Shown piece by piece: positions 1-15,640 of a DNA stretch of 64,000 nucleotides. This DNA is from Prototheca cutis (lineage: Eukaryota > Chlorophyta > Trebouxiophyceae > Chlorellales > Chlorellaceae), in the NCBI GenBank assembly GCA_002897115.2, contig BCIH01000004.1:1442600-1506599 (forward strand), in the 5' to 3' direction. The notes under the pieces were generated by a model that saw only the letters and a program-made list of their open reading frames with translations, ran no database searches and was not told the origin of the DNA. The position numbers were made by a program, and so were the translations under genes. The first letter of the stretch is position 1. The number at the start of each line of letters is the position of its first letter.

Positions 1-1238
1 TACATTACTTTTACAATACCTTGTACAATACATTATTTTACATTATCTTGTACAATACCTTGTACGTTTACAGTTCCCTGTACCTTACAACCATCTGCAA
101 CGTTTTGTCGATCGCAACTGTTGTCGTCTCGGGAGGGAGGAAAGTTGCCCCGATCACCCACCCAACTGGGCACGCATCGGTGAGCTGATCGTGGTGTGAG
201 AAACAACGTGGCCCCTGCGATGTAGATTGCTTTCCGTCGACCCCACATGGGCACGTCGTTTCCTTGCCACCATCCATCCATGCATTGGCTCCTTGCATTG
301 CAGCCAACGCAATGGACGAGGACTGCTGGGGCCTCGGAAAGGAGGCCACCAGGGGCACCATGTCGACTGTCAAGTCGTCGGTGCGTGAAACGTGGCAGGA
401 CGAACACCACAGCCCCCTGGAGGGACTCGTGATGAAGACGCATCACGTCACCTCCTACGCCGCGCTCTTCGCCCGGCTCCTCATCCTCCAGGAGTTTGAG
501 CGGGGCAACGTGCATCGCTTGCCCGAGATGGCGTCGGACAAGTTCCTGGCCCAGGTCTTCTTCTCGCTGGTCGTCTATCGGCAGAACAGCGCGAACTGCA
601 GCCGCGACACGCTGCTCATGCGCCTCCGTCTGAGCGCCGCCTTGCCCAAGTTCCTCCAACTGACCGGGTATGAGCCGCCGTCCTTTCGCAGCCCAAACAG
701 GGTGAGTCGGATGGGGTGCCAGGTGACTGGGTATTGGCGTTTTGACTCCTGCCTGCGTCGCTCGCTCACTTGCATGCTCGCTTGCTTCTGAAGGGCGGAG
801 GTCCGATCACCCGTTTGACAGATCGATCAACGATTGCCCGGCCTGGGTCCANGACGACCCCTACCGATGCGCAGATCGCCGTGTACTGGGCCGAGGGCTG
901 GTGCCGGTCGATCTTGACCAACATCCGCCTGCACTTGGGCGAGCATCTGCGGGGCACCGTCAACCTGCTCCTCGACATCAAGGCCCGGCGCAANGAGCTG
1001 CTGGAAAAGGCGAAGGAGGNGAACTGGGNCGCCGACAGACGCCGCGAGACGCTGGACCGGGAACTCTACGAACCGGTCCGGCGCATCAAGGCGGGCCTCG
1101 GGCGGCTCGACCCGGCGGTCAAGGACCTGGACGCCGCCCAGCAGGCGGTGTACGACCGGCTGCTGGCGCTGCTGCGCTCTGCCTACCGGCCGGAGCACCG
1201 GTTCAAGAAGGGCACGCTCTACTACGACGTCCAGGCCA
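1..1238. repeat. Left arm of a perfect inverted duplication (mirror at 9446-10683)
   Basis: Every position compared here matches the reverse complement at (10684 minus position). The match includes the ambiguous bases: N at 852, 994 and 1020 correspond to N at 9832, 9690 and 9664. The arm carries the AT-rich upstream region, exon 1, the intron and the start of exon 2 of Fanzor copy A. It stops exactly at the assembly gap at 1239. Beyond the gap, copies A and C differ at about 8% of residues. Shared ambiguity codes are not expected of two independently sequenced loci, so assembly duplication is likely. Confidence 0.85.
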
Positions 1239-2075
1239 NNNNNNNNNNNNNNNNNNNNNNNNNNNNNNNNNNNNNNNNNNNNNNNNNNNNNNNNNNNNNN
1301 NNNNNNNNNNNNNNNNNNNNNNNNNNNNNNNNNNNNNNNNNNNNNNNNNNNNNNNNNNNNNNNNNNNNNNNNNNNNNNNNNNNNNNNNNNNNNNNNNNNN
1401 NNNNNNNNNNNNNNNNNNNNNNNNNNNNNNNNNNNNNNNNNNNNNNNNNNNNNNNNNNNNNNNNNNNNNNNNNNNNNNATGGAGGCGCCCAACGGGCACA
1501 AGGCCTGCACCGTCTCGGCCTTCTCCGACTACCTGCGCGTGTTCGGCCAAGTCGAGCCGACGCTGACCGGGTACTACGCCCGGCCCATCTTCCGCACGCT
1601 CCACCTGTGGTCGTACAGCTCCCGCCAGCGCGCCTACGCGGCGCTGGTCGCGAAGCTGCGCGCGTTCGCCAACGGCGCGACGCTGGTCGTCGGCGACTGC
1701 TCGCCAGGCGCGGCACGTTACCACGAACCCACACCGAGCGTCGGCCTGCTGCGGGTGCTGGTCAAGGCGGGCTTCGACATCCTGCTCATCGACGAGTACT
1801 GCACCTCCCAGTTCTGCCCCGGCTGCGAGAAGCGCTCGGTGAAGACGTTCCTCGACGTGCCCAACCCCCGGCCGCACCGCAGGGAAAAGAACCCCACCGT
1901 GCGCTGCCACGGGCTCCTGCGCTGCGCCAACTGCAAGGTCAAGGATGGGCGATCTCGGCTCTGGAACAGGGACCTCATGGCCTGCCTCAACATGCTGCTC
2001 ATCGTGCAGGGGCTCCGCGAAACCGGCAAGCGGCCCGAGCGCTTCCAGCGCCCCAAGCCCAAGAAGAGCTCCTGA
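312..2075 (+). CDS. Fanzor (TnpB-like RNA-guided nuclease), copy A, broken by an assembly gap
   Basis: This is a eukaryotic TnpB homologue, expected to be an RNA-guided RuvC nuclease carried by a mobile element. Exon 1 is 312-701, starting at an ATG followed by DEDCWG and ending at a clear gtgagt donor. Exon 2 starts at 875 after gatgcgcag and runs into 240 N at 1239-1478, then resumes to a stop at 2073-2075. The reading frame differs on the two sides of the gap, so the N count is nominal. The C-terminal part carries the RuvC-II motif IDEYCTS, a zinc finger (CPGC, then CANC) and the RuvC-III motif WNRDLMACLN. The RuvC-I aspartate and the variable linker fall in the gap. This part is about 92% identical to copy C. 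Whether the gene is intact cannot be judged. Confidence 0.8.
1239..1478. other. Assembly gap (240 N) inside Fanzor copy A
   Basis: This is a run of N. It replaces the part of exon 2 that in copy C spans about 7.9-9.4 kb on the other strand and encodes the variable linker and RuvC-I. The real missing length is probably longer than 240 bases, because the equivalent stretch in copy C is about 1 kb. Confidence 0.95.
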
Positions 2076-2560
2076 AGAGCACTCCTGTCAAACATCTCTC
2101 CGTGGCGGCTATTGCCGCTACACTTGCTGCCCTCGGGCAAGGAGGCGCCTTAATTCAAAAAAAAATTAACACGACTGATTTACTTCCTTGCCCTGCCACT
2201 GCCCTGTCCTGCCCTGCCCTGCCCTGAACGATCATCCTGCCCTGTAATAGCGAACCCTAACAGCGAATTCACAAGCCTTGGTCCGCATTCCATTCGTAAC
2301 TTTAGGCAATCAGGGTGTGTGCCCCGGAAAGGCAGGGGTGGGGCGCCCACATGGAGGGCGGTCGATGACCCCCTCATAGGCTGACTGCACGGACGCCTGT
2401 CACGTGGTCGGGCTGGGGCCAGCCCCCCAGTCCCCATGCGAGGGTCGAACGCTGCACGCCAGAACGCCGGAAGACCGCTCGAAACGCAGCAAAATAAAAT
2501 AGAATGCATTACATTGATAAAATAAATGCAAAAAGGGCAAAAGAAGCATAGCATGGAGAC
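2076..2560 (+). other. 3' region of Fanzor copy A: CCCTG tract, TAATAGCGAA box, degenerate tail
   Basis: After the stop comes a segment shared with copy C, then a CCTG/CCCTG-rich tract at about 2186-2243, then the box TAATAGCGAA at 2245. That box recurs at 6201, 7083, 7650 (minus) and 12002 (minus). Further on, the block decays but keeps CGCCGGAAGACCGC near 2470 and an AT-rich tail ending in TAGCATGGAG near 2552. The same order is seen at 7083-7370. It is probably the old 3' end of the element. Confidence 0.55.
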
Positions 2561-3284
2561 ATTTAGGGGAAGGAGAAAAATGTGGTGTCCCTTACTTCCC
2601 ACTGCAGCAGGTTCGATTCCTGACGACACGCTGCGATTGGCCCCCCGCCCATGTCAGACTCCCCGATCTGGTCATGACGCGACTGGATTATTTTTAATTC
2701 AGTTACATGAAACAAGGGTGCATCTCGGAGTCCAAAAGGACAACCTGAAGGCGTGCCTCCTCTTTCTTTCGTCGGCGTCCAGGTCCATCTGCAACACCAC
2801 ACACCACCCGTACGAGCATGTTCTCAAGTCACTTTGTCCGAGAAATTGTCAGAAATTCAAGCGGTTTGTTTTGAACATATTTACCCTGGTTTTGCTTTTT
2901 GAAATGCCACCGCGGCATGAATGATATAAGAGCAGGCCTCCTCCGCTCATGCATCTATTCCATCCCCCTATTCCATCCGCGCAAGAGAGGCAACGCAAAA
3001 AAGCACGATCGATCGCGACTGTTCTTTGTTTCAAGCACGGGCCACCCACCCACCATGACGAAGAGCGTCGGGGCGTGGGTGTGGCAGCCCAGTCACCAGG
3101 AGCAGCCGGGCGAGTAGGACGCTGTTTCCAGCCCGACGAGCATCGGTGAGTCCCCTTTCCTCCCTCCCGTGATGCGACGAGACCAACACGATCGCGATCT
3201 CCGACGCTTGCCATGCCAGCTTGCCATGGAAGGGCGGGGCGACTCGAACACATCGATTTTTTTGCCGCGCATCCATTAATTGAT
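2561..3284. other. No gene seen; tRNA T-arm-like fragment near 2604-2632
   Basis: No convincing coding exon is present. A canonical T-loop, GGTTCGATTCC, with a short CAGG/CCTG stem sits at about 2608-2625 on the plus strand. No D-arm or acceptor partner is visible nearby, so this is at most a tRNA fragment. Around 3145-3215 there is weak similarity to the upstream region of copy A (for example CATCGGTGAG). Confidence 0.4.
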
Positions 3285-3435
3285 TAATGAATCCATCCAT
3301 CCATCCATTCGTTCGTTCGTTCGTTCGTTCGTTCGTTCCATCCATCCATTCGTTCGTTCCATCATTCCATCAACGCATTCCATCCATCAACGCATTCCAT
3401 CCATCAACGCATTCCATCCATCAACGCATTCCAAC
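3285..3435 (+). repeat. Microsatellite cluster (CCAT)n and (CGTT)n upstream of Fanzor copy B
   Basis: Tandem CCAT and CGTT tetranucleotides are followed by several copies of a 14-base unit, ATCAACGCATTCCA. The array ends 28 bases before the Fanzor B ATG. A shorter CCAT stretch sits at the same place upstream of copies A and C (about 268-284), so a CCAT tract may be an original part of the element's 5' leader. Confidence 0.8.
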
Positions 3436-3462
3436 GAGCGCAGGTGCAGAGACCTGGTCAGA

Positions 3463-6011
3463 ATGGACAAGGACTGCTGGGGCGCCGGGGAGGCATCCCA
3501 GGGCGGCATGTCGACCGTCAAGGGGTGGGTCGGCGCGGCGTGGAAGGAGGACTGCCACAAGAACCTGGAGACCGTTGTCCGGAAGACGAATCACGCGGGG
3601 CCCTACTCCGTGCACTTTGTGCGGCTCGTCGTCCTCGAGCAGCTCGAGCTGGGCAACGTGGGCTGCATACCGGAGCTGGTCTCCGAAAAGTTCTTCACCG
3701 AGGCCTTTCTCTCGCTGGTGACCTACGGCCAGCAAAAGGCCAAGAACGAAGACATCATTCGCTTCCGCAAACTCTTGGCCGCCTACAAGCCCAAGTTCCG
3801 GGAGCTGACTCTGTACCAGGCGCCGGCGTTCAAGAACCCAAACCGGGTGCGTCGGGCGCGTGAACGGGACTGCGACCGACCGACCGCTGGTCGCATGCGG
3901 TGCCTGCCTGCTTGCTTGCTTGTGTTGAAGGCTGAGCGAGGGATTGCCCCGAAAGAAACAATTGATGACGGACGGACATGGGGTTGGTTGGCGACGCACC
4001 CACCATACGATACACCGATCAACCAATAAATCGACCTCCTCGACGAAACTTTGCGCAGATCGCCACGTACTGGGGCGAGGCCTGGTGCCGGGCGACGGAG
4101 ACCAACGTCCGAGTCCACTTCGGCGAGCATCTGCGGGGCACCGTCAACCTGCTCCTCGACGTCAGGGCCCGGCGCAAGGAGCTGCTCGAAAAGGGAAAGG
4201 AGGAGAACTGGGACGGCAAGAAGCGGCGCGATGTGCTGCACCGGGAGCTGTACGGCCCCGGGCAGCGGATCAAGGCGGGCCTCGGGCGGCTCGACCCGGC
4301 GGTCAAGGACCTGGACGCCGCCCAGCAGGCGGCGTACGACCGGCTGCTGGCGCTGCTGCGCGCCGCCTACCGGCCGGAGCACCGGTTCAAGAAGGGCACG
4401 CTCTACTACGACGTCCAGGCCAGCCCACGGGAGCACGTCGCCGCGATGATCGCGCTGTCGCGCCTCCGCGCCGAGGAAAACCTGCCCGCGTTCCAGGCCG
4501 TCCCCGCGCGCGCGTCGTTCGTGCCCGGGGCGGTGGAGATGGACAACCAGGCCGCGGCCATGAACGTCCTGGGCTGGCGCAGGGTGCCAAAGGCGACCGA
4601 GCAGGACGCCGTCTGGAAAAACGGCCTGCTGCTGCCAAAGCGCCGCGAGATCAAGGACGCCGCCGGCGGCAGAAAGCACTGCGGGCACGTCTACACCGAC
4701 GGCAGATCGTGCTGCTACGTGAAGAAGGACCCGAAGCAGACCGGCAAGGGCCGGCACAAGCGCCCCGAGTGTGGCGGCGGTGGAGCCAAAGGCGGCGGCA
4801 AGTGTGGCAAAGGCGGCAATCCAGCGGAGCCAAAGAGGCAGAAGCTGCCCGATGGACGGTGCGGAAATGTCAGCGACGACGCAAGCAAGGTCGGTGACAG
4901 CAACGACAGCAACGACAGCAACGACAGCAACGACAGCAAGGGCGACGCTCCCGAGCGGCGCAGCGGCGGCGGGGAGCCCAAAGGGCTCGACTCAAGCGCG
5001 GAACGTGAAGTGGCGGCCGGCATTAGTGCTCGCACCAACACAGGCGCAGAGGCGAGCACCTCGGGTGCCCCGCCGCCGCCGAGCCACCCGGGGGCGCAGC
5101 CGGCCCGCCGGCGGCGCGCGACCAACAAGCGCGCGGGGCTCGAGGGCCTGCAGTACGTCGAGGACGTCGACCCCGCGGTGCTGCGGACGCTGAAGCTGGT
5201 GTTCATCGACCCCAACCGCCGCGACCTGCTGTTCTGCCTGCACGAGGACTCGCGGTCGGGGAGGAAGCACTGGAAGATCATGCGCTTCACCTCCAACGAG
5301 TGGGCGTACTGGACGCGGTCGCGCAAGCTGCGCAGACTGCGCCAAGCGCTCATGACCCAGGAGGTGCGCGCGTGCGAGCGGCGCCTGGTGATGGAGGCGC
5401 CCAACGGGCACAAGGCCTGCACCGTCTCGGCCTTCTCCGACTACCTGCGCGTGTTTGGCCAAGTCGAGCCGACGCTGACCGAGTTTTACGCGCAGCCCTT
5501 CTTCCGGGACGCCCGCTTCTGGGCGTACAGGAACCGCCAAAAGGGCTACGCGGCGCTGGTCGCGAAGCTGCGCGACTTTGCAAAAGGCGCGACGCTGGTC
5601 GTCGGCGACTGCTCCCCGGGCGCGGCGCGCTACCACGAGCCAACCCCGAGCGTCGGCCTGCTGCGGGTGCTGGTCAAGGCGGGCTTCGACGTCCTGCTCA
5701 TCGACGAGTACTGCACCTCCAAGTTCTGCCCCGGCTGCGAGGAGCGCTCGGTGGAGCCGTTCCTCGACGTGCCCAACCCGCGCCCCTATCGCAGGGCACA
5801 GTACCCCACCGTGCGCTGCCATGGGCTCCTGCGCTGCGCCAACTGCAAGGTCAAGGATGGGCAATCTCGGCTCTGGAACCGGGACCTCATGGCCTGCCTC
5901 AACATGCTGCTCATCGTGCAGGGGCTCCGCGAAACCGGCAAGCGGCCCGAGCGCTTCCAGCGGCCCAACAAGGGGAAGAACAATAAAGACAACGACGAGA
6001 AGAAGAGCTGA
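3463..6011 (+). CDS. Fanzor (TnpB-like RNA-guided nuclease), copy B, intact
   Basis: Exon 1 is 3463-3846 and exon 2 is 4059-6011, with a phase-0 intron (gtgcgt...gcag), giving about 778 residues. Exon 1 encodes a helical N-terminal region, and exon 2 begins with IATYWGEAW. The RuvC-I aspartate is in FIDPNRRDLL (about D512). RuvC-II is in LLIDEYCTSKF (about E678). The zinc-finger cysteines are about C685, C688, C721 and C724. RuvC-III is in WNRDLMACLNM (about D737). Residues 365-490 form a low-complexity linker with SND repeats. All catalytic residues are present and no frameshift is seen, so the gene could be active. The family is known to use an RNA transcribed from the element's 3' end as guide. 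A single-exon viral-type Fanzor2 is less likely, given the spliceosomal intron. No partner transposase is visible. Confidence 0.9.
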
Positions 6012-6198
6012 ACGAAGAGCTCTCTTGATTCCGGCCTGTTACTGCAGTGTCCACTTTTGCCGAATGAACCTCGGGGCTTCCTTGGCCTCCAGGAGACGGT
6101 AGGCTGGCGCGTTAATCCCAAGAAAAAACAAATGTCTTTGTTTGCGCTTTTGCCTCTGCCCTGTCATGCCATGCATCCTTTCCTGCCCTGCTCTGCCC

Positions 6199-6405
6199 TG
6201 TAATAGCGAATCCACACGCCCTGGCTTGATCACGTAAGAGAAGGGAAGACAGCGGGAGCTTGTTGCCTGTCAGATAAGATTGCGGGCAAAAAAGAGGTGC
6301 GGAGTACGTGGTTTGGGCCTCGGCTGATTACGTGACCAGGGCCCGGCCCGGTCCCCAGCGTCGAGTGTCCAAAAAACCTGCACGCTGGAGGGCCGGAAGA
6401 CCACG
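6199..6405 (+). ncRNA. Conserved non-coding block 3' of Fanzor B; candidate omega RNA region
   Basis: The block starts with CTGTAATAGCGAA, 190 bases after the stop of copy B. It continues through TTGATCACGTAAGAGAAGGG and TGTCAGATAAGATTGCG, two related ATTACGTGA-type motifs, and GCGCTGGAGG-type sequence ending at GGAAGACC. It has a close, clearly non-coding copy at 7081-7292. A recognisable head lies at the same distance (about 190 bases) from the stop of copy C. Conservation without an open frame, at constant spacing behind the nuclease gene, is what a guide-RNA scaffold should look like. No transcript evidence exists here. Confidence 0.45.
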
Positions 6406-6720
6406 GAGATCTCAGTGTACTGGGCCGAGGCTGGCGCCGGGTGACGGAGACAGCCCGTCAAGTCCACTCGGGCGAGCACGTGCACCGTCGACCTGGTGCG
6501 CAGCATCGAAGCTGGCGCAAGGAGCCGCTGGAGCAGTGACTGGGGAGAGGAGACTGGGACGGCCACGGCGGGACAGGGCAGCCAGCCCACGGGGTGCTTC
6601 TATGCCTGTGCTGGTGCGAGCGGCAATGCGTGCCGCCACTCCAGCGAAGAAGAGCACTCCCTGCCAGCACCTCTCCGTAACCGCTATCGGCGCTCGTTCC
6701 ACTAGCTGGGCCTTGGGCAG
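6406..6720 (+). pseudogene. Internally deleted Fanzor relic 1
   Basis: The piece begins GAGATCTCAGTGTACTGGGCC, which aligns to the start of exon 2 (IAVYWAEGW). It follows exon 2 through the HSGEH and GDWDG-like region with frameshifts. It then jumps to the 3' end of the gene (gaagagcactcc, then CTCTCCGTAACCGCTATCG), matching the sequence just after the stop of copies A and C. About 1.6 kb of the middle is missing. It cannot encode a nuclease. Like a MITE, it keeps the ends and loses the body. Confidence 0.7.
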
Positions 6721-7080
6721 GCCGGTGCCTGCAACTTGCTCACAAAAGCCCAAAGTGCCTTTTCCTTCCTGCCGTGCCACGTCTGGCTTGCCCTGCCTTC
6801 AGGGGGGAGGCGCGAGCACCCCTTTTCTTTAAAAACCTGCCCTACCCTGTGTACCCCCCAATAAAAAGACTGATTGTGCGTTCCTGCCCTGGCCCCGCCC
6901 TTGAACTCACCAAAAAGAACGTACTTTCCTGCCGTGCCACGTCTTGCTTGCCTTCAGGGAGGCGAGCACCCTTCCCAAATGAACTAAAACAAAAAACATT
7001 GATTGCACTTTCTTGCCCTGCCCTGGTCGATAATCCTGCCCTGTCCTGAACGATCATCCTGCCATGCATCCTTTCCTGCC
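6721..7080 (+). other. No gene; repeated 3'-UTR-like segments rich in CCCTG
   Basis: Two diverged tandem segments, each with TTCCTGCCGTGCCACGTCT-like sequence and gcgagcaccc, are followed by a CCTGCCCTG-rich stretch and the GAACGATCATCCTGCC motif. The same motif is found after copies A and C. This looks like duplicated element 3' sequence, and no coding potential is seen. Confidence 0.5.
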
Positions 7081-7292
7081 CTGTAATAGCGAAATTCATA
7101 CACCCTGGCTTGATCACGTAAGAGAAGGGAAGACAGCAGAGGGCGATTGTCTGTCAGAAAAGATTGCGTGCAAGAGGTGCGGATTACGTGATCGGGCCTC
7201 GGCGGATTACGTGACAAGGGCCCACGTGACAGGGGCCGGCCCCCGTCCCCAGCATCGAGGGCCGAGAACGGCGCGCTGGAGGCCCGGAAGAC
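7081..7292 (+). ncRNA. Second copy of the conserved Fanzor 3' block
   Basis: It is collinear with 6199-6405 and visibly similar over the full length, from CTGTAATAGCGAA to GGAAGACCGC. It includes an added CACGTGACAGGGGCC repeat. It follows relic 1, not an intact gene, so it is the 3' end of a decayed element. An AT-rich tail to 7359 leads directly into the tRNA at 7360. Confidence 0.4.
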
Positions 7293-7359
7293 CGCTCCAA
7301 AAGCGCCAAAATAAAGAAAAAAGCATTACATGCATAAAATGAAGCGTAAAATGGCAAAA

Positions 7360-7451
7360 TAGCAGGGAGGCGCCTTAACCACTCGGCCACGTTGTCAGAA
7401 CGCTTGTCGACAACGGCAGGATTCGAACATGCGCCCCTTGCGGGACCTCCT
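7360..7451 (-). tRNA. Candidate circularly permuted tRNA-Ser(GCU)
   Basis: On the minus strand the 3' half (7451-7408) comes first, then an 11-base spacer (7407-7397), then the 5' half (7396-7360). Joined in normal order they give 81 nt. The acceptor stem GACAACG/CGTTGTC pairs 7 of 7 and is followed by discriminator G. The D-arm is GCCGAGTGGTTAAGGC. The anticodon stem CCTCC/GGAGG pairs 5 of 5, and the loop is CTGCTA plus A with anticodon GCU. The long variable arm has the stem-loop TCCC-GCAA-GGGG. The T-loop is TTCGAAT, with one mismatch in the T-stem. The break lies after base 37, the usual tRNA intron site. A TTTT run follows the 5' half and could end Pol III transcription. Permuted tRNAs are known from Cyanidioschyzon and prasinophyte algae. 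The alternative is two neighbouring tRNAs, each split by an insertion. Confidence 0.75.
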
Positions 7452-7452
7452 G

Positions 7453-7841
7453 AATGCTTGTTGGGGAGGCAACATTATTCCCGCCTGAAATATCCGAAAT
7501 CCCATTTACCATTTCCCATGTACGGTCCCGACAGGCATGGCATTTGCTGTCGCTGAAGGTCAGTCCCTCAGTTTTTCCAGGCACATTATCTAATCTAACA
7601 GGTATTTCTTACGTGATCTACCCTCACCAGGGCATGTAGATTTCGCTATTACAGGGCAGGATGATCGTTCAGGGCAGGGCAGGGCAGGACAGGGCAGGGG
7701 CAGGGCCAGGGGCAGGGGCAGGGAAGAAAGGACAATCAGTCGTTTCATTTTATTTTTTTTGAATTAAGGCGCCAGCCTGCCCGAGGGCAGCAAGTGTAGC
7801 GGCAATAGCCACCACGGAGAGATGTCTGACAGGAGTGCTCT
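7453..7841 (-). other. 3' region of Fanzor copy C, running into the tRNA 3' half
   Basis: Reading away from the gene, there is a segment shared with copy A, then a CCCTG/GGGCAGG-rich tract at about 7715-7653, then the TAATAGCGAA box (at 7650) and the GATCACGTAAGAAA motif. Next is TGCCTGGAAAAACTG, which recurs in relic 2, and then unique sequence up to the tRNA 3' half. Only the first part of the conserved block seen after copy B is recognisable here. Confidence 0.5.
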
Positions 7842-10372
7842 TCAGGAGCTCTTCTTGGGCTTGGGCCGCTGGAAGCGCTCGGGCCGCTTGCCGGTTTCGC
7901 GGAGCTCCTGCACGATGAGCAGCATGTTGAGGCAGGCCATGAGGTCCCGGTTCCAGAGCCGAGATCGCCCATCCTCGACCTTGCAGTTGGCGCAGCGGAG
8001 CAGCCCGTGGCAGCGCACGGTGGGGTACTGTGCCCTGCGATAGGGGCGCGGGTTGGGCACGTCGAGGAACGGCTCCACCGAGCGCTCCTCGCAGCCGGGG
8101 CAGAACTTGGAGGTGCAGTACTCGTCGATGAGCAGGACGTCGAAGCCCGCCTTGACCAGCACCCGCAGCAGGCCGACGCTCGGGGTTGGCTCGTGGTAGC
8201 GCGCCGCGCCCGGGGAGCAGTCGCCGACGACCAGCGTCGCGCCGTCGGCGAACGCGCGCAGCTTCGCGACCAGCGCCGCGTAGGCGCGCTGGCGGGAGCT
8301 GTACGACCACAGGCGGAGCGTGCGGAAGATGGGCCGGGCGTAGTGCCGGGTCAGCGTCGGCTCGACTTGGCCAAACACGTGCAGGTAGTCGGAGAAGGCC
8401 GAGACGGTGCAGGCCTTGTGCCCGTTGGGCGCCTCCATCACCAGGCGCCGCTCGCACGCGAACACCGCGGGGGGCTTCATCTCCCTCCGCACGCGGCGGT
8501 ACTTGCGCGACCGCNTCAGGAACGCCCACTCGTTGGCCGTGAAGCGCATGGTCCTGCGCTTGCCCTTGCCGGGCTGGGAGTCCTCGTGCATGCAGAACAG
8601 CATGTCGCGGCGGTTGGGGTCGATGAACACCAGCTTCAGCTGCCGCAGCTCCTCGGGGGGGACGTCCTCGACGTACCGGACGCCCTCCATGCCCCGGCGC
8701 TGGCGGCGCTTGCGGGTCTTGCGNGGNGCCGCGTCGCCCGGGGCGTGGAGGGCGTCCCCTACGTTGGCCGCGCCGCTGTCAGCAGCAGCTGCATTGCTGC
8801 CATCAGCAGCAGCTGCAGCGGCATTGCCAGCAGCAGCAGCTGTAACGGCAGCGCCGCCAGCATCATCAGCAGCTGCAGCGGCATCGCCGCCATCAGCAGC
8901 AGCAGCTGCAGCGGCATTGCCGCCGGCGCCAACAGCAGCTGCAGCGGCATTGCCGCCGGCGCAGGCATCGGTAGCGGCGGCGCCGCCATCGGCAGCGGCG
9001 GCGCCGCCATCAGCAGCAGCGCCGCCATCGTCAGCGCCGTCATCGTCACAACAGTCATCGTCAGCGTCGTCGTCGTCACAACAGTCATCGTCGTCGTCAC
9101 ACGCGGGTCGCTTGCGCCGCCCCTTGCCGGTCAGGCTCGGGCGCTTTTTGATGAAGCAGCACGACCTGCCGTCGGTGTAGACGTGCCCGCAGAACTGTCT
9201 GTCGCCGAGGTCCTTGATCTCGCGGATGCCCCGCTTCAGCAGGCCCTCNATCCAGATCTCCTCCTGGTCGGCGGAGCCCGGCGCCCCGGTCCAGCCCAGG
9301 ACGTTCATGGCGGCGGCCTGGTTGTCCATCTCCACCGCCCCGGGCACGAACGACGCGCGCACGGGGACGGCCTGGAACGTGGGCAGGCCNTNCTCGGNGC
9401 GGAGGCGCGACAGCGCGATCATCGCGNCGANGTGCTCNNGNGGGNTGGCCTGGACGTCGTAGTAGAGCGTGCCCTTCTTGAACCGGTGCTCCGGCCGGTA
9501 GGCAGAGCGCAGCAGCGCCAGCAGCCGGTCGTACACCGCCTGCTGGGCGGCGTCCAGGTCCTTGACCGCCGGGTCGAGCCGCCCGAGGCCCGCCTTGATG
9601 CGCCGGACCGGTTCGTAGAGTTCCCGGTCCAGCGTCTCGCGGCGTCTGTCGGCGNCCCAGTTCNCCTCCTTCGCCTTTTCCAGCAGCTCNTTGCGCCGGG
9701 CCTTGATGTCGAGGAGCAGGTTGACGGTGCCCCGCAGATGCTCGCCCAAGTGCAGGCGGATGTTGGTCAAGATCGACCGGCACCAGCCCTCGGCCCAGTA
9801 CACGGCGATCTGCGCATCGGTAGGGGTCGTCNTGGACCCAGGCCGGGCAATCGTTGATCGATCTGTCAAACGGGTGATCGGACCTCCGCCCTTCAGAAGC
9901 AAGCGAGCATGCAAGTGAGCGAGCGACGCAGGCAGGAGTCAAAACGCCAATACCCAGTCACCTGGCACCCCATCCGACTCACCCTGTTTGGGCTGCGAAA
10001 GGACGGCGGCTCATACCCGGTCAGTTGGAGGAACTTGGGCAAGGCGGCGCTCAGACGGAGGCGCATGAGCAGCGTGTCGCGGCTGCAGTTCGCGCTGTTC
10101 TGCCGATAGACGACCAGCGAGAAGAAGACCTGGGCCAGGAACTTGTCCGACGCCATCTCGGGCAAGCGATGCACGTTGCCCCGCTCAAACTCCTGGAGGA
10201 TGAGGAGCCGGGCGAAGAGCGCGGCGTAGGAGGTGACGTGATGCGTCTTCATCANGAGTCCCTCCAGGGGGCTGTGGTGTTCGTCCTGCCACGTTTCACG
10301 CACCGACGACTTGACNGTCGACATGGTGCCCCTGGTGGCCTCCTTTCCGAGGCCCCAGCAGTCCTCGTCCAT
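7842..10372 (-). CDS. Fanzor (TnpB-like RNA-guided nuclease), copy C
   Basis: Exon 1 is 10372-9983 and exon 2 is 9809-7842, with the same phase-0 intron as copies A and B, giving about 785 residues. The open frame is complete, but a dozen or so N remain, so some residues are unknown. RuvC-I FIDPNRRDML, RuvC-II IDEYCTSKF, the CPGC/CANC zinc finger and RuvC-III WNRDLMACLN are all present. The linker at about 8715-9105 is quite different from copy B. It is acidic with DDDCC clusters, followed by Ala/Gly-rich repeats from GCAGCA-type triplets. A stretch around 8000-8160 is identical to copy B, although the flanks resemble copy A, which suggests gene conversion or chimeric assembly. Its 3' end faces that of copy B, with the tRNA between them. 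Confidence 0.85.
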
Positions 10373-10683
10373 TGCGTTGGCTGCAATGCAAGGAGCCAAT
10401 GNATGGATGGATGGTGGCAAGGAAACGACGTGCCCATGTGGGGTCGACGGAAAGCAATCTACATCGCAGGGGCCACGTTGTTTCTCACACCACGATCAGC
10501 TCACCGATGCGTGCCCAGTTGGGTGGGTGATCGGGGCAACTTTCCTCCCTCCCGAGACGACAACAGTTGCGATCGACAAAACGTTGCAGATGGTTGTAAG
10601 GTACAGGGAACTGTAAACGTACAAGGTATTGTACAAGATAATGTAAAATAATGTATTGTACAAGGTATTGTAAAAGTAATGTA
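9446..10683. repeat. Right arm of the perfect inverted duplication
   Basis: This is the mirror of 1-1238, with the same internal N positions plus a few extra N (for example 10255) where the left arm is resolved. It contains the start of exon 2, the intron, exon 1 and the AT-rich leader with TTGTACAA-type repeats of Fanzor copy C. Confidence 0.85.
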
Positions 10684-12059: not shown

Positions 12060-12422
12060 CGCTTGGCTGTGAGTTGAAGGCGGGCCGCTGCCTGGGACCC
12101 AGCCACGTAACGCCGGTTACGGAGAGACGTCGACAGGCAGTGCTTTTCAGGAGCTCTTCTTCGCTGGAGTGGCGGCGCGCATTGCCGCTCGCACCAGCAC
12201 AGGCGTACAAGCACCCCCCATGGGCTGGCTGCCCTGTCCCGCCGTGGCCGTCCCAGTCTCCTCTCCCCGGCCACTGCTCCAGCAGCTCCTTGCACCGGGC
12301 CTCGATGCTGCGCACCAGGTTGATGGTGCACGTGCTCGCCCGAATGGACTTGACGGGCTGTCTCCGTCACCCAGCGCCAGCCCTCAGCCCAGTACACCGA
12401 GATCTCCGCGGTCTTCCGGCCC
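12060..12422 (-). pseudogene. Internally deleted Fanzor relic 2
   Basis: The minus strand starts GGAGATCTCGGTGTACTGGGCC, equivalent to IAVYWAEGW at the exon 2 start. It continues through the VHSGEH region and GRGDWDGHGG, and joins to the gene's last codons and 3' flank (AAGAAGAGCTCCTGAAAAGC, then CTCTCCGTAACCGGCG). The deletion points resemble those of relic 1. The sequence before the start (GAGGGCCGGAAGACCGC) is the end of a Fanzor 3' block, as in relic 1. Confidence 0.65.
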
Positions 12423-12600
12423 TCCAGCGCGCCGTTCTCGACTCTCGACCCTCGACGCCGGGGCCGGACGCCCGTCACGTGGGCCCTGGTCGCCAATCAC
12501 GTAACCCGCCAGCCCTGCTGGGTCTCCCGACGTGCTCTGGCAGGCGTGCATTCGCGGTTGCAGCCCGAGGGAGCGCGCTCAGTGGTTTTCGGAAAGGGGT
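12423..12600. other. Remnant of the conserved 3' block and unique spacer
   Basis: On the minus strand TTACGTGATTGG, CACGTGACGG and a GAGGGTCGAGAGTCG-type segment match the last third of the block at 7200-7290. No gene is seen. Confidence 0.4.
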
Positions 12601-13000: not shown

Positions 13001-13458
13001 GCCGTCCCTTCCCACTGGATCGGTCCGTCCGTTGACTGATCGATGGACGGGAGCCGCTCGACCGGGGGATCGGCCCTTGACGCAGGCAGGCGGGCGTCCG
13101 CCCGGCGTCGAGTCAGTCCTGCTGGACGTGACGCCCGGCCGGCCGGGTGGTCGCAGCAGCGAGACTGGCTCTGGCGGCCGGGCCGCCGGTGCAGGTCGCC
13201 CACGGCCGGCGTCGACGATGCGCGTGCTGATCGTCCGAGGGGGTGCGCGCGCTTCGTCGCGAGAGGGAGGTTCCTTGCGCGTGCGTGCCGATGCAGGCGG
13301 CGGTGACGCGCACTGACGGCGGTGAAGCCTTGTCGAGCTTTGTCGACTGCCACGTGAGCGGGGCGGGCATGTCTCCCAAACAAGTGCCTGTGTGATCAGA
13401 TTCCATCGCTGCGTCGCTCGGAGAATGGGTTGCGTTCCTTTTTGAAGGGCAGGGTGGT

Positions 13459-13665
13459 GTGCCCAGCCCATGCTGTATCTCAGGGAGCAGAGGGCTGCTG
13501 CGCCGCGCCGGCGAGGAGTGCCGCGCCCCGAAAGGCGAGCATCGTCTCTGGAACAGAGGCTCGATGGCGTGTCTGAACATGCGGCACATCGTGGAGCACC
13601 TGCGGGAGACCAGCGAGCCGCTAGAGCGCTACCAGCGCCCAAAGCTGCAGTGCTGGCGACCACAC
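13459..13665 (+). pseudogene. Fanzor C-terminal fragment with altered RuvC-III motif
   Basis: The translation contains LWNRGSMACLNM and then HLRETSEPLERYQRPK. This aligns with LWNRDLMACLNM and GLRETGKRPERFQRPK at the end of the intact copies. The catalytic aspartate of RuvC-III is replaced by glycine and the upstream domains are absent, so this is a dead 3' fragment. The minisatellite starts immediately after it. Confidence 0.7.
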
Positions 13666-14895
13666 GTCCATCCTGGTGGTCGAACCTCCATGCTGGTGAC
13701 AACACCTCCCTCCATCCTGGTGACAACACCTCCCTCCATCCTAGTGACAACACCTCCATCCATCCTGGTGACAACACGTCCCTCCATCCTGGCGATCGCA
13801 CATCCATCCTGGTGACGACACCTCCCTCCATCCTGGTGACCACACCTCCCTCCATCCTGGCGACCACACGTCCATCCATCCTGGCGACCACACACCTCCA
13901 TCCTGGCGACCACACGTCATCCTGGTGACCACACCTCCATCCTGGCGACCTCCCTCCATCCTGGTGGCCAAACCTCCATGCTGGTGACCACACCTCCCTC
14001 TATCCTGGTGACAACACCTCCAAACGTCCTGGCGACCACACGGTCATCCTGGCGATCACACCTCCCTCCATCCTAGTGACCACACCTCCATGCTGGCGAC
14101 CACACCTCCATGCTGGCGATCACACCTCCATCCTGGCGACCACACCTCCATGCTGGCGATCACACCTCCCTCCATCCTGGCGACNNNNNNNNNNNNNNNN
14201 NNNNNNNNNNNNNNNNNNNNNNNNNNNNNNNNNNNNNNNNNNNNNNNNNNNNNNNNNNNNNNNNNNNNNNNNNNNNNNNNNNNNNNNNNNNNNNNNNNNN
14301 NNNNNNNNNNNNNNNNNNNNNNNNNNNNNNNNNNNNNNNNNNNNNNNNNNNNNNNNNNNNNNNNNNNNNNNNNNNNNNNNNNNNNNNNNNNNNNNNNNNN
14401 NNNNNNNNNNNNNNNNNNNNNNNNNNNNNNNNNNNNNNNNNNNNNNNNNNNNNNNNNNNNNNNNNNNNNNNNNNNNNNNNNNNNNNNNNNNNNNNNNNNN
14501 NNNNNNNNNNNNNNNNNNNNNNNNNNNNNNNNNNNNNNNNNNNNNNNNNNNNNNNNNNNNNNNNNNNNNNNNNNNNNNNNNNNNNNNNNNNNNNNNNNNN
14601 NNNNNNNNNNNNNNNNNNNNNNNNNNNNNNNNNNNNNNNNNNNNNNNNNNNNNNNNNNNNNNNNNNNNNNNNNNNNNNNNNNNNNNNNNNNNNNNNNNNN
14701 NNNNNNNNNNNNNNNNNNNNNNNNNNNNNNNNNNNNNNNNNNNNNNNNNNNNNNNNNNNNNNNNNNNNNNNNNNNNNNNCTGGCGACCACGCCTCCCTCC
14801 ATCCTCGCGACCACACCTCCAAACATCCTGGTGACAACACCTCCCTCCATCCTGGCGACAACACCTCCAAGCATCCTGGCGACCACACCTTCCTG
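13653..14895. repeat. Minisatellite of about 24-27-bp units, interrupted by a gap
   Basis: Tandem, imperfect copies of a unit such as CCATCCTGGTGACAACACCT plus a short CCCTC extension run from the end of the Fanzor fragment to about 14895, with N at 14185-14779. Variants swap gtg/gcg and aacac/ccac. All frames are open because the unit lacks stops, but the repetitive products are not real proteins. Confidence 0.9.
14185..14779. other. Assembly gap (595 N) inside the minisatellite
   Basis: This is a run of N. Both sides are minisatellite, so the gap is best explained by collapse of the tandem array. Confidence 0.95.
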
Positions 14896-15300
14896 TTGCC
14901 CTGCAGAGTGTGCAGGTCTAACCCTAAAGATCCCCAAGCGATACCTGGCGCTGTTGCTGGCTGAGCTGGTTGCATTCTTTTTGCCCTGCACGGCATGGGT
15001 CCATGCGCAAGAATCAAGCCCGAGGAAACCCCCAGCACCTGTTTACAAGTCTCTGGAATCAGACTCGGGGTCCAAAGTCGCGAGGGAAACAGCCCGGACT
15101 GATCGCCAAGGTTCCAAGGGGCGTATGAAACCTTTCGAGCACCGCTCCGTTCAGAGGGGCGTGTCTGTTGCGCTGTGCCGAAACGCGCGCCGCGCCATGA
15201 ACGGCCCGGCGGCGAACGAGGCTTGTTTGCGCTCGCCGGTGTGCGCCATCCCCCCTGGAGGCCAGCACGACATGGAAGGAAAGGCAGCACCTTGGGTTTT
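14896..15300. other. No gene seen; segment repeated at 16085-16210
   Basis: The part around 15130-15260 shares CTCCGTTCA, CGCCATGAAC and GGCTTGTTTGCGCTCG with 16085-16210, so a short repeat family is present. No coding exon is supported. Confidence 0.4.
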
Positions 15301-15640
15301 TTCAAGGCGGCAGCCTGCCTGGGGCCCAGCTAGTGTAACGGCGATAGCCACCACGGAGAGACATCGACGGGAGTGCTCTTCTTCCGCGAGCTGGCGGCGC
15401 GCATTGCCGCTCGCCCCGTGGGCTTGCTGCCCTGTCCGCGCCGTTGCCGTTCCGGTCTCCTCTCCGTCAGCCACCGCTCCGGCAGCTCCTTGCGCCGGGC
15501 CTTGCTGTCCCGGGTTGACCTGGCTGCGCTCGCCCGAGTGGACTTGAAGGCCTGTCTCCGTCACCCAAACCCCCCCCCCCAAAAAATACCCCCCCCCAAA
15601 AGTGCACCGCGATCTGCGAAAGGTTTTGTCGAGCAGACGA
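15300..15640 (-). pseudogene. Internally deleted Fanzor relic 3
   Basis: On the minus strand CGCAGATCGC begins the exon 2 homology (QIAVHF), which is broken by runs of G, then VTETGLQVHSGE and AQGAAGAVADGEETGTA-like frames. It ends with GAAGAGCACTCCCGTCGATG, TCTCCGTGGTGGCTATCGCC and TAGCTGGGCCCC, the post-stop flank of copies A and C. This is the same ends-only structure as relics 1 and 2. Confidence 0.65.

Follow-up and report, generated by a model that had tools for sequence, protein, structure and literature searches.

Two intact-looking Fanzor1 genes, an incomplete third copy and related mobile elements in the genome of Prototheca cutis

Fanzors are the eukaryotic cousins of the CRISPR nucleases and cut DNA guided by an RNA. 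We analyzed a cluster of Fanzor genes in a 64,000-nt stretch of the Prototheca cutis genome (contig BCIH01000004.1, positions 1,442,600 to 1,506,599, or C4:1442600-1506599 in our numbering; hereafter the window) and searched the whole genome (19.89 Mb in 23 contigs) for relatives. The original prediction placed three Fanzor genes with full RuvC active sites at this locus; the cluster consists of two intact-looking Fanzor1 genes, copies B and C, and one incomplete gene, copy A. The three copies form a divergent Fanzor1 subfamily, here called W, distinct from a commoner Fanzor family of the same genome, here called the main family. The genes are laid out in the window as follows:

312-701, + strand: copy A exon 1, near-identical to copy C exon 1
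702-874, + strand: copy A intron, in the same place as in B and C
875-1238, + strand: copy A exon 2, 5′ part, readable
1239-1478, no strand: gap of 240 N in copy A, where its RuvC-I would fall
1479-2075, + strand: copy A exon 2, 3′ part, with RuvC-II, zinc finger and RuvC-III
3463-3846, + strand: copy B exon 1, 128 amino acids, N-terminal part, open frame
3847-4058, + strand: copy B intron, 212 nt, GT-AG (GTGCGT...GCGCAG)
4059-6011, + strand: copy B exon 2, 650 amino acids plus stop, with REC/WED, linker, RuvC and TNB zinc finger
4722-5129, + strand: low-complexity linker of copy B from WED to RuvC (exon 2 residues 222-357), predicted local distance difference test score (pLDDT) <50 throughout
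5208-5210, + strand: RuvC-I catalytic Asp codon, D512 of copy B (motif, alignment, structure model)
5706-5708, + strand: RuvC-II catalytic Glu codon, E678 of copy B (motif, alignment, structure model)
5727-5846, + strand: zinc finger of copy B, from CPGC (5727-5738) to CANC (5835-5846)
5883-5885, + strand: RuvC-III catalytic Asp codon, D737 of copy B (motif, structure model)
7842-9809, − strand: copy C exon 2, triad motifs all present, several residues unread
9810-9982, − strand: copy C intron, 173 nt, GT-AG
9983-10372, − strand: copy C exon 1, one residue unread (N)

The two exons of copy B splice into a protein of 778 amino acids without the stop, which carries the FIDPNRRD, LIDEYCTS, CPGC, CANC and WNRD motifs. 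Residues 17 to 352 form a single HMMER alignment to the Fanzor1 of Parasitella that is unbroken across the splice point, and this supports a model with one intron. That intron has the same position in A, B, C and the five main-family copies examined; in one of these five (L051), the acceptor is one base off the projected position. The earlier claims that copy B is intact and that the genes have one intron therefore hold. The C4 zinc finger sits between RuvC-II and RuvC-III, and its four cysteines are invariant in all 14 aligned rows. The linker of copy B is variable among the aligned copies. The TDG motif of the WED domain reads YTDG in both B and C; main-family rows have SDG at this place, and L041 has TNA. 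Copy C has the same gene plan, with an open frame and every motif found; its single Ns leave some residues unread, 12 X in the frame 7845-9938 and one in exon 1. In copy A, the 240-N gap stands in place of ~970 nt of copy B, RuvC-I Asp included, and the full active site predicted for this copy is thus not borne out.

When the sequence of copy B was searched against the PDB, only Fanzor1 proteins were matched at E ≤ 0.001, and a family profile additionally matched Guillardia Fanzor1 (4.3e-48). A search of solved structures gave Fanzor1 in all of the best six rows, and copy B is closest to solved Fanzor1 rather than to Fanzor2, TnpB or Cas12. The RuvC triad D-E-D is present in copy B. In the structure model, the first Asp is at a strand end, the Glu is in a loop that follows a later RuvC strand and precedes the zinc finger, and the second Asp is at a helix start. 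These positions match those in solved Fanzors, for which a placement rule has been given (PMC11423790). The TnpB/Fanzor identity proposed earlier thus passed the computational tests by sequence, profile, structure and D-E-D placement; neither an unrelated zinc-finger protein as best match nor a misplaced triad was found. In a viral structure library, the RuvC model had 31 matches at E ≤ 0.001, many of them from giant viruses (best E 1e-18), as expected for a Fanzor. Among viral contigs, 33 stretches fitted a pattern and none was confirmed. A protein database search with exon 2 of copy B gave no match, the linker having probably filled the candidate list, while the RuvC region gave five. Judged from these comparisons, B and C are real Fanzor1 genes of an already known kind, with predicted activity.

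Copies A and C are joined by a near-perfect inverted repeat, which could be a collapsed repeat or a very recent duplication:

1-1239, no strand: left arm, partner of 9445-10683, extending upstream of the window
9445-10683, no strand: right arm, reverse complement of 1-1239

The arms are 100% identical in one comparison and 99.8% in another, and four single Ns are common to both at the same places. Near-identity (98 to 100%) extends ~360 bases upstream of the window, into the locus L039, and then falls to 62 to 84% per 100 columns. Past the gap, A and C are 92% identical over 797 columns. This mix of near-identity with shared Ns followed by a drop suggests an assembly duplication or gene conversion. 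We therefore weighed whether the cluster is partly a product of assembly, with one W locus drawn twice and A and C being one gene or chimaeras, and consider this an even bet. Single Ns, present in 19 of the 20 loci listed across the genome, also speak for it. However, B is distinct from C (~45% amino acid identity in exon 1 and 83% in RuvC), the 3′ part of A is unlike both B and C, and three further Ns in the arm of copy C are read bases in copy A.

The divergence of subfamily W was estimated over RuvC, where B and C are 83% alike and each is 67 to 69% like a main-family copy. In a 10-row tree, which is flagged for long branches, uneven letter make-up and one open inner fork, B and C pair with each other (99/100). 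P0001, a 647-amino acid close relative of the main family found on a 3017-base ENA contig, falls in with the main family at the same support (99/100). W and the main family may therefore have split before P0001 branched off, or have moved between hosts. In P0001, Asn (IWGRN) occupies the third catalytic position, which is also the case in Guillardia Fanzor1; the Asp and Glu are retained. The linked relics of the original prediction are real, their E-values excluding chance as a source:

6299-6655, + strand: relic 1, W-type deletion derivative in which the start of exon 2 is fused to the 3′ end
12153-12509, − strand: relic 2, the same W-type derivative, colinear with relic 1
15305-15566, − strand: relic 3, in two pieces, probably the same W-type derivative, more decayed

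Relics 1 and 2 are 85.6% identical over 362 colinear columns, and the two pieces of relic 3 are 80% and 74% identical to relic 1 and 81% and 85% to relic 2. Downstream of A, B, C and two relics lies a common 3′ motif, TAATAGCGAA. Similarity continues beyond it and splits into two types, and therefore no W end was called.

Overall, B and C very probably belong, as Fanzor1 genes, to a mobile-element subfamily (W), A being a third, incompletely assembled copy. The Fanzor1 fold and sequence, the triad, the zinc finger, the intron and the multicopy relics are established here; expression, RNA binding, cleavage and a transposase that mobilizes the B and C elements are what we infer. Several results weigh against this assignment. 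The model of the whole exon 2 of copy B is poor (mean pLDDT of 53.6), and the placement of REC and WED is therefore based on sequence; in a Foldseek search with this model the first seven rows were Fanzor1 chains, but with template modeling (TM) scores of 0.26 to 0.40. W inverted repeats and a target duplication were looked for and not found, and R1, a model of the main-family right end described below, finds no match downstream of any of the three copies. The structured right end and the inverted repeats next to TA are established for the main family and not for W. Genome searches for the transposase domains DDE_3, DDE_1 and Transposase_1 detected none, those for DDE_1 and Transposase_1 being without a working control. 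Last, the ratio of nonsynonymous to synonymous changes (dN/dS) between B and C is ~1 (with exon 1 at 0.74, the two parts of exon 2 at 1.03 and 1.01, and the stretch that A also covers at 0.89), and purifying selection on the protein is therefore not demonstrated. The 3′ part of copy A gave 0.32 against C and 0.48 against B. Simple methods underlie this analysis of selection (NG86, uniform random substitution, GC-rich codons).

The dN/dS of ~1 and the failure to recognize a W right end or omega-RNA are also what one would see if B and C were Fanzor1 by descent and no longer nucleases, being decaying element genes or having another role. So is the distribution of the 3′ flank of copy B, which was found at five places, all in the window, among relics and tandem and inverted rearrangements; the search skips common words, which leaves its rarity unproved. 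Yet both long frames are open with triad, zinc finger and intron retained, and no stop arose between B and C, where ~9 would be expected by random change for 300 changes. We therefore regard loss of nuclease function as rather unlikely. The B and C frames are best read as kept open, with constraint on the protein not established.

An assignment to Fanzor2, or to the TnpB of an IS607-type element, is highly improbable and not favored, as structure and family profile place B nearest Fanzor1. The reading as an unrelated zinc-finger protein that carries the motifs by chance is refuted by the structure and PDB sequence matches to Fanzor1; one could cite for it the score of copy B with the Pfam TnpB/Fanzor zinc-finger model PF07282 (17.8 bits against a cut-off of 26.3). 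A test by Pfam alone would miss copy B.

The main family offers the ends that W lacks. The element spans ~3.4 kb and ends in imperfect inverted repeats of ~26 bp next to a flanking TA; its copies are mostly 88 to 97% alike over long stretches with the same two edges. Of 20 listed places, 17 allowed the 5′ edge to be re-anchored, and it starts with TA in all 17, while 19 of 21 3′ ends are TA-final and 2 are CA-final; the end anchors contain TA but tolerated 6 to 7 errors. At 11 of the 17, the base before the 5′ TA is G; four have C there, and A and T occur once each. Seven of the 5′ ends have the CAGGGCAAAAATG form, matching CCATGCAGGGCAAAAATAATGCAACC, the reverse complement of the 3′ end; the other 10 have a variant GGCA(G/A)AAAATGATGAA-like form. 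Terminal TA and imperfect terminal inverted repeats are Tc1/mariner-type features, and TA duplications have been called a hallmark of Mariner (PMC3627910). The ends suggest that the main family also duplicates a TA target.

The last ~105 nt of the element make a good omega-RNA candidate, in which an inner TTGCCCTGCAGAGTG-like stretch is predicted to pair with the terminal repeat up to the TA and form a long stem. The fold of one copy has −44.1 kcal/mol, versus −34.5 (standard deviation 3.2) for shuffles. Across 21 copies, 98.1% of 752 cells pair, a result favored by the derivation of the paired structure from the same 21 copies; when the partner was slid out of register, pairing fell to 35 to 55%. 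Of the 36 pairs, three show changes in both partners, a level reached by 5 of 500 shuffles, and the RNAalifold covariation term is only −0.42. Main-family copies are close relatives, and covariation is therefore thin. In published Fanzor1 guide RNAs, the terminal repeat and target duplication are within the scaffold (PMC10711439).

Two main-family features lie in the window:

13323-13651, + strand: main-family relic, the part near the 5′ end followed by the coding 3′ end, 71 to 88% identical to main-family copies, in pieces
14888-14995, + strand: main-family right end, candidate omega-RNA scaffold (R1, 63.5 bits, E 1e-14), the sole R1 place in the window

A 28-base right-end pattern has one match in the window, at 14968-14995; a 15-base pattern has three, versus 2.2 expected, the left-end pattern has none, and an Rfam scan of the window gave nothing at the gathering threshold. 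Within the relic, a 24-base minisatellite of the CATCCTGGCGACCACACCTC type has expanded (13653-14888, with a gap of 595 N inside). Just upstream of the window, at L039:5419-5527 on the − strand, there is a divergent main-family right end (42.4 bits).

In the genome, exon 2 of copy B matches at least 82 places, exon pieces counted separately (68 of 247 candidates scored). The right-end search listed 43 matches from 40 scored of 314 candidates, and right ends of the main family appear to outnumber intact genes by far. At C2:1757588-1757692, C2:917813-917931 and C1:1936515-1936763, right ends stand close together in inverted order, possibly as very short nonautonomous elements with two right ends. 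In L042, L044, L050 and other main-family copies, an exon 1-like stretch is tandemly doubled ~290 bases apart (81% alike in L042 and 72% in L044), perhaps as an alternative first exon. Four main-family copies, L049, L053, L054 and L056, are without ~300 residues between REC and RuvC. The junctions lie in short repeats and are not all alike; they are in frame in L049, L054 and L056 and out of frame in L053, and the frame of L049 is broken elsewhere. A conserved "mini-Fanzor" is thus disfavored and the four are read as recurrent deletions, with a selected short form not excluded.

PF07282 matches at least 97 places in the genome (150 of 181 scored), all outside the window. Its eight top places (L001 to L008, on C5, C7, C1, C3, C2, C6 and C8) are unmatched by copy B at 1e-4. 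Five of them (L001, L002, L004, L006 and L008) were read in frame, the other three lying on the opposite strand. All five have the WNRD zinc-finger end, and all except the short L008 have VDEFRTS; an insert, probably an intron, separates the Glu motif from the zinc finger in this lineage. L004 scores 46.6 bits, above the Pfam cut-off. In searches of solved structures, its sequence gave no match, and L006 gave weak matches (best 6e-4) to a glycine-run region that were judged chance. R1 finds no match in L001 to L008. Since these loci pass Pfam with Fanzor-like motifs and are unmatched by copy B, the genome holds a second, distant Fanzor-like lineage. The host is probably a colorless, apparently nonphotosynthetic alga: no chlorophyll a/b-binding protein was found in the genome by a search whose control matched in 1 of 14 genomes, a cyanobacterium.

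Compared with known systems, copy B shares the triad and DPN motif with SpuFz1 of Spizellomyces punctatus (PDB 8gkh), from which it is distant in sequence (5.4e-39). The SpuFz1 elements have 30-nt inverted repeats and a CATA target-adjacent motif (TAM), carry an omega-RNA at the right end and include short "ghost" loci (PMC10432273), and they much resemble the main family; their scaffold is 75 nt, versus the ~105 nt proposed for the main family. In PpFz1 of Parasitella parasitica (PDB 9cf0-9cf3), cyclophilin is bound by an insertion within RuvC (PMC11423790); copy B has instead a ~136-residue low-confidence linker ahead of RuvC. In GtFz1 of Guillardia theta (PDB 9cer), the third catalytic residue is Asn (PMC11423790); it is Asp in B and C. 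The suggestion that this subtype may be undescribed was too strong, because algal Fanzor elements are in print for Auxenochlorella and Cyanidioschyzon (PMC12633428 and PMC3627910). In the related alga Auxenochlorella, no repeat is more abundant than a Fanzor element, which is called uncharacterized (PMC12633428). CMe-1A of the red alga Cyanidioschyzon merolae is a Fanzor1 element with ~150 copies and is said to be without terminal inverted repeats (PMC3627910), unlike the main family. A literature search for Fanzor in Prototheca turned up only the Auxenochlorella work, and no published ends or right-end RNA of the main family in these algae turned up in the parts of the literature covered. The value added here is the main-family ends and the right-end RNA candidate.

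By analogy with solved relatives, the spliced ~780-amino acid protein would most likely bind the omega-RNA to which the right end of its own element gives rise; this RNA would include ~15 nt of host DNA from the right flank as a guide. The protein would then cut a matching target next to a short, TA-ending TAM. Once the element leaves, the restored empty site would be cut and refilled from another copy, and the element would be kept. Such upkeep through cutting of the empty site is known from bacterial TnpB work.

Taken together, and put forward tentatively as a possibility that falls short of probable, two or more Fanzor lineages, deeply diverged from each other, would have colonized the ~20-Mb genome of an apparently nonphotosynthetic alga, with W as a divergent branch of the main one. 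The main-family terminal repeat and the copy-like stretch ~100 nt inside it would form the basal helix of a guide-RNA scaffold, and each insertion would read the adjacent DNA as its guide. Truncated copies, possibly hundreds, could be a trans-acting guide-RNA pool for intact Fanzor proteins.

This is a small genome with many related copies that have sharp ends, an apparent TA target and a foldable right end, and guides, TAM and omega-RNA can therefore be proposed from the assembly. If the main family and the uncharacterized Auxenochlorella element are the same, our results would give that element its ends and a candidate transposon type.

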